DNA of 47,368 nucleotides from Clostridiaceae bacterium (GTDB lineage Bacteria; Bacillota; Clostridia; Acetivibrionales; DUMB01), in assembly GCA_012840535.1 (NCBI GenBank), contig DULF01000047.1, positions 1 through 47,368 on the forward strand, written 5' to 3'. The notes beneath the pieces were generated by a model. It saw only the letters and a program-made list of their open reading frames with translations, was not told the DNA's origin and made no database searches. Position 1 is the first letter of the stretch; each line of letters opens with the position of its first letter. This document shows, piece after piece, positions 1 to 15,026 of this stretch. Made by a program: the position numbers and the translations under genes.

Positions 1-764
1 AGCGCTTCTTTGCCGTTATATGCTTCACATACCGAATATCCGCTGTTTTCAAAGTATGATTTTACAATCTCCACTATTTTCGCTTCATCGTCCACAACCA
101 GTATTTTTTTACGCATGTTATTCATAAGCAGTATCAGTGTAATTATAACTCCGGCCGTTTCAAAATACAGTCCTTCAACAGCGTGAGTATTGTCAATCGA
201 TATCTGATAGGTCGAATATAAGCTATAGATAACCGCCGCTGTCGTACCTATTGCTATAAGGGAGTCCATGTTAGGGCTCCTTTGGATAAGCGCTTTATAT
301 CCGACTGTGTAGAATTTGTTTCCGGCTATGATTACCGGTATAACCAATGCCAGTTGGGTAAGCGCGTATCTCAAAGGAAAATGCATGGGCTCAAGGAAGC
401 CGGGTATAGGGAATGGCAGCCACGAAATCATCGGCACCATTGCAAGGTATAACAGAGGCGCGGTGAATATTGCCGCTATGATGAATTTTCTCCAAAGCGT
501 GCGTATCTCTTTCTCCTTGCGCAGCTTATCCTCGTCAACAGCAGCTTTTTTCTCAATATTTATAACCTCATATCCTATTTTTTCAATGACCTGCTTTATT
601 TCGGAGAATCTGGTTTTCTGAGGGTCATATTCTACGGTTGCCTTTTCCGTGGCAAAGTTTACAGAAACACGTAATACTCCTTCTTTTTTGCCCAATACTT
701 TTTCAATTCTGCTAGCACATGCTGCGCAGGTCATGCCGCCTATCTTAACAATTTCTTTATTCAT
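1..764 (-). CDS. CopA-type heavy-metal P1B ATPase N-terminal region (HMA domain + first TM helices) continuing in frame into a response-regulator receiver domain; runs off the left edge
   Basis: Manual minus-strand translation from ATG 764: MNKEIVKIGGMTCAACASRIEKVLGKKEG...GLYFETAGVIITLILL|MNNMRKKILVVDDEAKIVEIVKSYFENSGYSVCEAYNGKEA; no stop before base 1; GMTCAAC HMA motif; KKILVVDDE receiver motif. Confidence 0.8.
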   Translation of the reverse strand, partial: MNKEIVKIGGMTCAACASRIEKVLGKKEGVLRVSVNFATEKATVEYDPQKTRFSEIKQVIEKIGYEVINIEKKAAVDEDKLRKEKEIRTLWRKFIIAAIFTAPLLYLAMVPMISWLPFPIPGFLEPMHFPLRYALTQLALVIPVIIAGNKFYTVGYKALIQRSPNMDSLIAIGTTAAVIYSLYSTYQISIDNTHAVEGLYFETAGVIITLILLMNNMRKKILVVDDEAKIVEIVKSYFENSGYSVCEAYNGKEA

Positions 765-813: not shown

Positions 814-2664
814 TCAATGGCAGGAAGGCAACCCGCTGGTATCTACAGATTCCTGTATGGTCGGAACATATTTGATTACTTCTTCCTTAATTGCATCAAT
901 GTCAATTTGGTTTATATCATCAACAACCTTTACATAGCCATAAAATGTGTTATCGAAAGCAGCAAAATCAAAATCGCCGTCAGGTATTAAAAATAATTTA
1001 TTCTCCCCCTCCTGCATTCTGATTTGTGCATAATACTTGGGAAATATAAGTATGCTGTTGCTGTCATTTAATTTAACAGCGTTAATGTTCCATGTTGTTT
1101 CTATTCCCCTCTGCATTACCACTACTGCCGGGGAAAACCTGTCCTCTTCCATGTTTATTTCAACAATCTGTTTCCCGTCTTCTATTCTGGCAATTGCAAC
1201 TTTGTCAGTAGGTATTTTGTATCCGGATTTTTGAAGTCCCCCATTTGAGCCTGATGCATCAACGTTATTAATATCATCAACTACAGTTATTTTGCTCCTT
1301 ATCATGCCCATCCAACAGCTATACGCAAATATCCCGGTTTGTTCCGGAGTGAATTCTATAATATTGTCTCCTGGCTCAAGCTTTTTTACTTTATTGAATT
1401 TTGGTATTATTATTTCATTATTACAGCCATTTATGTCGCTTTTCCGAGCCTTTATGATCCACCTTACAGGTATGCCTTTTTGAACCGTTACCGGTTCATA
1501 CCTCCCTGGCTGCAGATTTGTAGTTACAATCTGGACACAATCTTTTATTGTTGCAATATTGCCGCTTTTAGCGCCGCTGTCTGAACCAAACGGTATGGAA
1601 GGCAATGAAAAGCCTGACAATGCCAGGCCTCTGTTAGCCATGGCTATTCCAAGCACTATAACCAGTACGGCGCTTACTTTTATCATCTTATGAGTAAATT
1701 TTCCGGTCAATATGGAACTGAGTGCGCCCAGACCGAACATCAAAGGCACTGTACCCATGCTAAAGAAAAACATGGACAATGCTCCTGCCACAATACTTCC
1801 GGTACCCAGCGCATAAATCTGCATGGCCTGAAGCGGCCCGCACGGCATTAAACCATTGAACAGTCCAACAAAAAAAGGTCCATATCTTCCATTGTTATTG
1901 TAAAGCTTGCTGCCAAATATCTTGGGCATCTTGGGGTTCAGCTTCCTAAGCCAGGGAAATATATTAAGCATATTTAGTCCCATAATTATCATGAACAAGC
2001 CGGATATAATTGCAACAATTCCCTTGGCAGCCCCGGAAAAACTAATGATGGAACCTAATGCTCCTACTGTGCCTCCGATAACGGTATAGGATATTATCCT
2101 GCCGCTGTTATAGAGCAAACTTGGTTTCAGCTTCGAAATCTTGCCGGGGTTTCCGTTGTCAATCTTGTATGAAACGCACTGGGACAGGTTGATTCCCCCG
2201 CACATTGCAATACAGTGCATTGAAGTAATAAGTCCGACAACAAAAAGTACACCATACCCCATTGATTGGTTAATCTCCGGTATAAAGTTAAAACCAACAG
2301 TGTTTTTAATGATAAGATAGAGAGCCAGCAATATAATCCCTATGCCAAGAAACTGGCTTATTGACATTCTATCTTTTTTGGCTTCATTTTCTTTTGTTTT
2401 TGAAATAGTTTCGCTGCCTGGCTTGTTCGTTTCGCTGCCCGGCTTATTTATTACTGTATAATCCATCTCTTCTAATGTTTTAATAATTTGTTCCAACCGT
2501 ATTGCATTTGCGTCATAAGTAATGTAAACATTGGAACTGCTGTAAATCGCTTTTACTTCCACTATGCCGTTTAGTTTTTTAAGAGCGTTCTCTATCCTCA
2601 TTACACAGCTTGTACAGGCCATACCCTCTATCCGGAGGATTTTGCGCATTATTCTTCGTTCCAT
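814..2664 (-). CDS. HMA domain + sulfite exporter TauE/SafE (UreH/DsbD-like) membrane domain + cupredoxin-like C-terminal domains; putative copper-handling protein
   Basis: GMACTSCVMRIE HMA motif; SMHCIAMCGGINLSQC and GLMPCGPLQAMQIYALGTGS membrane-domain motifs; cupredoxin-like repeats at C-terminus; upstream of copA-like gene on the same strand. Confidence 0.82.
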   Translation of the reverse strand: MERRIMRKILRIEGMACTSCVMRIENALKKLNGIVEVKAIYSSSNVYITYDANAIRLEQIIKTLEEMDYTVINKPGSETNKPGSETISKTKENEAKKDRMSISQFLGIGIILLALYLIIKNTVGFNFIPEINQSMGYGVLFVVGLITSMHCIAMCGGINLSQCVSYKIDNGNPGKISKLKPSLLYNSGRIISYTVIGGTVGALGSIISFSGAAKGIVAIISGLFMIIMGLNMLNIFPWLRKLNPKMPKIFGSKLYNNNGRYGPFFVGLFNGLMPCGPLQAMQIYALGTGSIVAGALSMFFFSMGTVPLMFGLGALSSILTGKFTHKMIKVSAVLVIVLGIAMANRGLALSGFSLPSIPFGSDSGAKSGNIATIKDCVQIVTTNLQPGRYEPVTVQKGIPVRWIIKARKSDINGCNNEIIIPKFNKVKKLEPGDNIIEFTPEQTGIFAYSCWMGMIRSKITVVDDINNVDASGSNGGLQKSGYKIPTDKVAIARIEDGKQIVEINMEEDRFSPAVVVMQRGIETTWNINAVKLNDSNSILIFPKYYAQIRMQEGENKLFLIPDGDFDFAAFDNTFYGYVKVVDDINQIDIDAIKEEVIKYVPTIQESVDTSGLPSCH

Positions 2665-13091: not shown

Positions 13092-15026
13092 TCACAATAC
13101 CCCTTTCTCGGTCAACTCTGTCAGCACAAGTATGAACATGGCATGTGACCAGGTGAGGGGTATAACCCATGCCGGCTTCCCGCTTTCTTTATCAACCTGT
13201 TCCGGAAGCAGATTGAGCTTCGTGCATGATTTTACAGCCCATTCAAAATAATCCTTTGCTTTGCTGAAATCGCCCTTTTTAATATGATACAGGGCAGCCC
13301 ACAGAGTTGTGATTATCCATGGATTCCCTCCAATGTATTTGTCGTTCTCGTATCTTTTGAGTCCGCCAACTTTCGGTGAGATGAGGCGTTCTTCAATAGT
13401 TTTGACAGTATTTACAATTCTTGGATCCTCAACATCAAATACTTCAAAAGGTATCGCCATCCCGAGGAGGCTGACATCAACAGTCCAGTCTTCGGAGGTA
13501 ACATCCTTGCAATAGCCTTTAGGATTAACCTTTATCATAATTTTATTATCAGTATGCTCTTCCTCCCATGGATTAAGTTTTACCCGCACGCTTCTTATAA
13601 ACCTTTTTTCCTCTTCCTTCCAAAAGTTTTTTACAATCGCTGTTTTTATTTTTTCAGCGGCTGATTTCCAATCGTCAATATAATACCGTGAAAATCCAAG
13701 TATTTCAGCAATTCTTGCCCCAGCCTTTATCCCGGCATAAACTGCTGCGGAAGAATACGCATGTTCGCCGAACCTCTCCTCCCAAAGGTCATAACTTGGT
13801 CCAGGCAGACCGGTTTCCTCATCAATAAACTTTATCATAAACTCTACCGCTCTTTTTGCACTTTCCCACATTTTTTCCAAAAAAGCTATATCTTTTGTTA
13901 CCTCATAGTGTTTCAACATCCCCCATACAAGAGTCCCGGTTTCATCTATCTGCAATCCCCAGGAGGGAGCCAGATTGCCGTCCATGTAGTAACGCTGATG
14001 CCATGAACCGTTTTCGTCCTGTGTATTTAACACCCAATCGTAAAACTTGTCTACAACAGAACCAAGACCGCATTTATCCAGCGCCGCAGTTATGAACGCA
14101 GCATCCCTTCCCCAGCAGTAAGCATATTTACCGCACCTTGTAAATTCTTCATCCACTTCGGGAGACGCAAGAAGTCCTCCGCTTTTTTTATCAGCCATAA
14201 GCTTAAAAACCAGCAGTGAGCGTTTGTACAGGCTGTCAATCTCATCTACGCCTGTCAAAACTTTCTTTGTTCCTTTCAGATAATTAATCCAATAATTTCT
14301 CGTCGCCTCATAATATGTTGAGGGCTCTCCGTTTCTGGCACACTTTGTTATGGCCTTAATTCCTTTTAGACTATGAGATGCGCAAATATATAAGGTAAAT
14401 GTTTTCTTTTCCCCTTTATAAATAGGGTCCAGTTTCCAGGAAACAGCTCCATCACTCATCATTCCAATATTATCAAACCCGTTAAGCCACGTGGATTTCG
14501 CGCTTTCAAACGCATTGTTTCCTAATTGAAATTGGTACACTTCCCTGTCGGCGGAAAGCGAAATATAGTAGCCATGCCTGTAATGCACAAGAGCTTCATT
14601 TTCAAAATCAAAGAATATTCCTGCACGGTCAAAACCGTTTGACATTCCTGAGGAAAATATGATAAATCCTGGTTCAATTGCCTGCTCACCTGTATTTTCC
14701 AAGTTGTAATGCCTTACAAAAATATCTTTGTCCGGCAGGACAAAATCCAGTTGTTCAATCTTTAAGCCCCTCCAGATATCTTCAAATACAGTTTTTACTA
14801 TATTGGTATCCTCAATATACTGCTGGTGTTTATTAAATTCACTTTCATTCAGCCATACTGTGCTGTTTTTATAACCTGTCAAAAAAACTCCTGTAAGCAT
14901 TTTGTCTATATGTTGAGGAAAATCAATATTGGGCCAGAATAATCTTACCAGTTCACCGTTTTCGCTGATACACCCCAGCATGCATGAATTGCCCACAATT
15001 GCATCATTAAAATATGTTTTTGCCAT
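13092..15026 (-). CDS. glycoside hydrolase family 15-like (glucoamylase-type) protein
   Basis: 644 aa; YCWGRDAAFITAALDKCG, WHQRYYMDGNLAPSWGLQIDETGTLVWGM, PGPSYDLWEERFGEHAYSSAAVYAG. Confidence 0.85.
   Translation of the reverse strand: MAKTYFNDAIVGNSCMLGCISENGELVRLFWPNIDFPQHIDKMLTGVFLTGYKNSTVWLNESEFNKHQQYIEDTNIVKTVFEDIWRGLKIEQLDFVLPDKDIFVRHYNLENTGEQAIEPGFIIFSSGMSNGFDRAGIFFDFENEALVHYRHGYYISLSADREVYQFQLGNNAFESAKSTWLNGFDNIGMMSDGAVSWKLDPIYKGEKKTFTLYICASHSLKGIKAITKCARNGEPSTYYEATRNYWINYLKGTKKVLTGVDEIDSLYKRSLLVFKLMADKKSGGLLASPEVDEEFTRCGKYAYCWGRDAAFITAALDKCGLGSVVDKFYDWVLNTQDENGSWHQRYYMDGNLAPSWGLQIDETGTLVWGMLKHYEVTKDIAFLEKMWESAKRAVEFMIKFIDEETGLPGPSYDLWEERFGEHAYSSAAVYAGIKAGARIAEILGFSRYYIDDWKSAAEKIKTAIVKNFWKEEEKRFIRSVRVKLNPWEEEHTDNKIMIKVNPKGYCKDVTSEDWTVDVSLLGMAIPFEVFDVEDPRIVNTVKTIEERLISPKVGGLKRYENDKYIGGNPWIITTLWAALYHIKKGDFSKAKDYFEWAVKSCTKLNLLPEQVDKESGKPAWVIPLTWSHAMFILVLTELTEKGVL

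Follow-up and report, generated by a model that had tools for sequence, protein, structure and literature searches.

An apparent copA–response regulator fusion at an assembly branch point in a Clostridiaceae draft genome

The stretch of DNA analysed here, hereafter the window, is the whole of contig C26 (47,368 nucleotides) of the Clostridiaceae genome G000, and its base 1 is a contig end. Next to that end, on the minus strand, the N-terminal part of a CopA-type copper ATPase passes in frame into the start of an OmpR-type response regulator. As a new protein architecture this fusion is most likely not a real feature; the junction itself is present in the DNA, where it may represent a genuine deletion allele. 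On balance we consider it probable that the window carries a damaged version of a conserved and otherwise ordinary copper-resistance operon (HMA/DsbD gene, copA, copZ, response regulator, histidine kinase), lying at a branch point of the assembly and produced by a recent loss-of-function deletion in part of the population. The features on which the argument turns are as follows.

Positions 126–764, minus strand: 5′ part of copA, encoding one HMA domain and four transmembrane helices, 79–84% identical to the intact 821-residue CopA of relatives.
Positions 126–128, minus strand: junction, where the copA codon CTT abuts the ATG of the response regulator; 126–127 (TT) belong to the shared 127-mer, which stops short of 128.
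Positions 3–125, minus strand: start of the OmpR-type response regulator, with its ATG at 125; the complete 233-residue gene is on contig C35 (10808–11509, minus strand).
Positions 1–127, minus strand: 127-mer identical (100%) to C35 11385–11511, the last 127 bases of that contig; it covers the TT preceding the ATG and the codons for residues 1–41 of the response regulator.
Positions 814–2664, minus strand: intact gene for a 616-residue protein with HMA, DsbD-like membrane and cupredoxin-like parts, which precedes copA in relatives too.
C35 9354–10790, minus strand: histidine kinase (HAMP-HisKA-HATPase), directly after the response regulator.

The minus-strand frame from 764 to 3 is open for 254 amino acids and runs off the end of the contig. 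The translation follows CopA as far as ...YFETAGVIITLILL and thereafter reads MNNMRKKILVVDDEAKIVEIVKSYFENSGYSVCEAYNGKEA, such that residues 1–213 correspond to a CopA N-terminus (an HMA domain and four hydrophobic helices, by Pfam and hydropathy) and residues 214–254 to the first 41 residues of the regulator. The HMA domain (PF00403, residues 6–66, 69.6 bits) includes the GMTCAAC motif and with it a CxxC pair, while the Response_reg match at residues 221–254 covers the first 34 of 111 model positions and scores 23.7 bits against a cut-off of 30.2 because the receiver is truncated at the contig end. The switch falls shortly after the fourth transmembrane helix ends, where the cytoplasmic actuator domain of CopA would begin, and exactly at this point the aligned CopA proteins of relatives go on with GK(T/S)LEAVSKG. 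The in-frame passage from a CopA N-terminus to an OmpR-type receiver start that a preliminary description of this DNA had proposed is therefore confirmed by the open frame, the Pfam HMA match and the alignment of relatives.

What the window shares with CopA-type P1B copper ATPases (HMA, E1-E2_ATPase and Hydrolase domains) is confined to the N-terminal HMA domain and the four helices. The E1-E2_ATPase actuator, the CPC and DKTGT motifs, the ATP-binding parts and TM5–8 are all absent from the frame, whereas the CopA proteins of relatives have actuator, CPC and DKTGT; the earlier statement that the catalytic parts are missing was thus correct. It was equally right that no Shine-Dalgarno sequence precedes the internal ATGs: GGAGG stands just upstream of the homologous regulator ATG in three relatives (G003, G010 and G001) and is missing at the regulator start in the window, where copA, instead of copZ, a spacer and GGAGG, lies ahead of the start codon. 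As a separate observation, the CopA of the window has one HMA domain (560–764, minus strand) where its closest relatives have two, and this domain starts like the first HMA of the relatives and proceeds like their second, as if tandem HMA domains had recombined.

Following the regulator leftward, as had been suggested, leads to the adjoining contig C35, which carries the full receiver, the DNA-binding domain and the kinase. The C35 regulator has its own ATG and complete Response_reg and Trans_reg_C domains, the kinases of the closest relatives are 72–81% identical to the one that follows it, and the pair matches, with complete domains, the OmpR-family regulators and cognate HisKA kinases encoded beside copA. 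Contamination was considered as a cause and set aside: the C35 kinase (81%) and an ABC permease on C26 (67%) each match best to G001, a genome of the same family, and both contigs therefore fit one lineage.

In related genomes these genes form an operon with intact members. The order HMA/DsbD gene, intact copA, response regulator and histidine kinase on one strand is found in at least nine loci (G003, G007, G010, G004, G008 with two loci, G011, G025 and G029), the copA frame being long and open in every case, and CopZ-like proteins of 68 amino acids are encoded between copA and the regulator in G003, G007 and G010. The HMA/DsbD gene of the window stands where this order predicts. A relative in which an intact copA is followed by a separate regulator had been named beforehand, together with evidence of misassembly, as something that would speak against a biological fusion; relatives with this arrangement exist, and the junction itself coincides with an exact 127-base overlap of contig ends. 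The operon is not invariant, since in G009 (L041, 2737–4806) the regulator directly follows the HMA/DsbD gene with no copA between them, showing that copA can be absent from it, and regulator–kinase pairs lacking an adjoining copA occur in G001, G009 and G019.

Two further loci deserve mention in their own right. A short contig of the same assembly (L013; C168, 1–2188) holds the end of a gene for a GTP-binding protein, an FtrD-like gene and the beginning of another HMA/DsbD gene, which is 71% identical to that of the window and resembles the one of G009, a member of another family; the contig may stem from a further copy of the operon or from contamination. In L037 (5754–8218, from the record of Acetivibrio straminisolvens JCM 21531; compare L064), CopA is encoded in overlapping frames of 489 and 380 amino acids, apparently as the result of a frameshift.

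The position of the junction relative to the end of the contig carries much of the argument. The assembly of G000 is a draft of 240 contigs and 3.19 Mb with 96.7% completeness. Identity between C26 and C35 stops at the end of C35 (11511) and is not one base longer, and no third contig end in the assembly carries the 127-mer. As a control for this length, other contig ends of the same assembly were sampled: dovetail ends of exactly 127 bases join the start of C9 to the end of C10 and the start of C11 to the end of C14, terminal stretches of 127 bases are shared by C33 and C27 and by C191 and C217, and C13 and C50 overlap by 126 bases. The recurrence of exact 127-base ends indicates that the assembler used a k-mer of 127 and that C26 and C35 come together at a vertex of the assembly graph (a de Bruijn k-mer overlap, k = 127). 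Contig-end overlaps of the maximal k-mer length are known from metaSPAdes and MEGAHIT assemblies (PMC10914622), and the ends described here resemble them in that one fixed length is common to several pairs. Apart from this, five contigs (C238 at 14592–14741, which is the right end of L014, and C33, C27, C191 and C217) have an end in common, a repeat with 123 or more identical bases that is probably the terminus of a mobile element breaking the assembly.

Dovetailed contigs of this assembly can be true neighbours, as an ordinary reading frame runs unbroken through both control joins (C10/C9, within miaA, and C11/C14). C26 and C35, too, probably adjoin each other in the genome, with some 2.0–2.6 kb missing between them. 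What sets them apart from the two controls is that only here does one gene change into another at the edge of the overlap: the switch from copA to the regulator lies within 2 bases of the edge of the 127-mer, on the copA side of the vertex, so that the two halves join at a branch point, and an overlap of exactly the assembler's k ends where the genes switch. Had variation on the regulator side caused the branch, a switch at the vertex edge would be expected only about 1–2 times in 100. The simplest reading would be that the data contain a second upstream sequence leading into the same regulator, one that parts from C26 exactly at the junction.

The sequence missing between the two contigs, as judged from relatives, would comprise about 1.6 kb of copA (its 3′ two thirds), copZ, a spacer and the GGAGG of the regulator. 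Looking for the 3′ part of copA elsewhere in the genome had been suggested as a check, and the outcome was negative: protein and DNA searches of the G000 assembly found neither the missing part nor copZ, the best protein matches being paralogues at no more than 59% identity and the best DNA matches (65–72%) lying on C238, and the native upstream region of the regulator is on no contig of the bin. C238 does hold an intact second CopA, with a frame of 739 amino acids and a CopZ-like gene adjoining it.

These observations can be accommodated by a deletion that would have removed about 2.0–2.6 kb from the DNA behind C26, from the end of TM4 of CopA to just ahead of the start codon of the regulator, with homology of no more than 2–3 bases (TT). 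CopA would thereby have lost its catalytic part, copZ and the ribosome-binding site of the regulator would, to judge from the relatives, have gone too, and the frame shared by copA and the regulator would be a coincidence. This regulator start would also be present in the sample with other DNA upstream, which would make the contigs break there, and the loss may be tolerated because an intact CopA is encoded on C238. Since the genes on both flanks of the junction, on C26 and on C35, are undamaged, any deletion must be recent; it would sit in living cells rather than in a chimeric molecule, and from the geometry of the graph a native allele would coexist with it. Counting against this reading, neither the native upstream region of the regulator nor the lost part of copA is on any contig of the bin, and a join that falls in frame and exactly on a start codon looks a little neat for a random event; the frame alone would be kept about one time in three.

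A chimeric join comes close behind, and we regard it as possible, with perhaps one chance in a few. According to this explanation, the cells would have an intact series of copA, copZ, regulator and kinase, and either a chimera in the library or gap-filling by the assembler would have joined the N-terminal part of copA to the regulator start where coverage failed. The coincidence of the switch with the k-mer edge at a contig end would follow naturally, the intact arrangement is the rule among relatives, the genome is a draft of 240 contigs, and undamaged frames on both sides are what an artefact, or else a very recent event, would leave. Against this, a false join at small k needs at least 21 shared bases where the junction offers 2–3 at most, and assemblers usually discard low-coverage chimeric edges, and the intact continuation of copA is not in the assembly. 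A rare chimeric read would not be expected to prevail over a copA continuation in the contig, as the junction does here; on this point a real deletion, carried by at least part of the population, is the better fit.

It is improbable that one genome instead holds two copies of the 5′ end of the regulator, one joined to a copA remnant and the other behind its own promoter ahead of the kinase; in that case C26 would not truly adjoin C35. Contigs would break in the same way at any repeat of 127 or more identical bases, and the copA-free regulator–kinase pairs of G001, G009 and G019 offer a precedent, but the operon order of relatives puts copA directly upstream of this very regulator and the 127-mer appears on no third contig end.

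Least likely, and very improbable, is a functional fusion, born of an in-frame deletion, in which a single protein of about 446 amino acids (HMA-TM1-4-REC-DNA-binding) would be a membrane-tethered regulator, sensing copper through its CopA-derived HMA/TM module and receiving its phosphate from the adjacent kinase. In its favour, the reading frame stays open through the junction, the regulator here has no Shine-Dalgarno sequence of its own, and the join lies after TM4 by hydropathy, so the receiver would face the cytoplasm; in P1B ATPases the domain following TM4 is cytoplasmic. However, the native start codon is still there, the join falls on an assembly edge, and the genes are separate in the relatives checked. 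An HMA-TM-REC architecture, which the preliminary description had thought worth seeking in relatives, was found in none of them: the window alone spans the junction among 60 relatives and, in a search with the junction peptide, among 392 genomes of the class, and thus no architecture conserved in more than one genome emerged. A Treponema locus (L069) matching query residues 1–253 turned out to encode an ordinary CopA of 779 amino acids. The best matches inspected from a plasmid search, outside which lie 59 records with longer coverage, are to the regulator and start at query residue 23 at the earliest, i.e., at the junction, and a literature search for a copA–regulator fusion found none. Of the three origins envisaged initially, a deletion and a misjoin have both survived, whereas a membrane-anchored metal-binding regulator has gained no positive support beyond the open frame.

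The hypothetical fusion would resemble the membrane-bound one-component regulators of the CadC/ToxR type in placing a DNA-binding regulator at the membrane. Those proteins have an N-terminal DNA-binding domain and a single transmembrane segment, and nothing in the window points to common descent or function. An apparent gene fusion that lies less than one k-mer length from a contig end should be compared with other contig ends of the same assembly before it is given a biological reading. Were the fusion fixed and functional, it would represent a new route by which a metal-responsive regulator can arise from a transporter.
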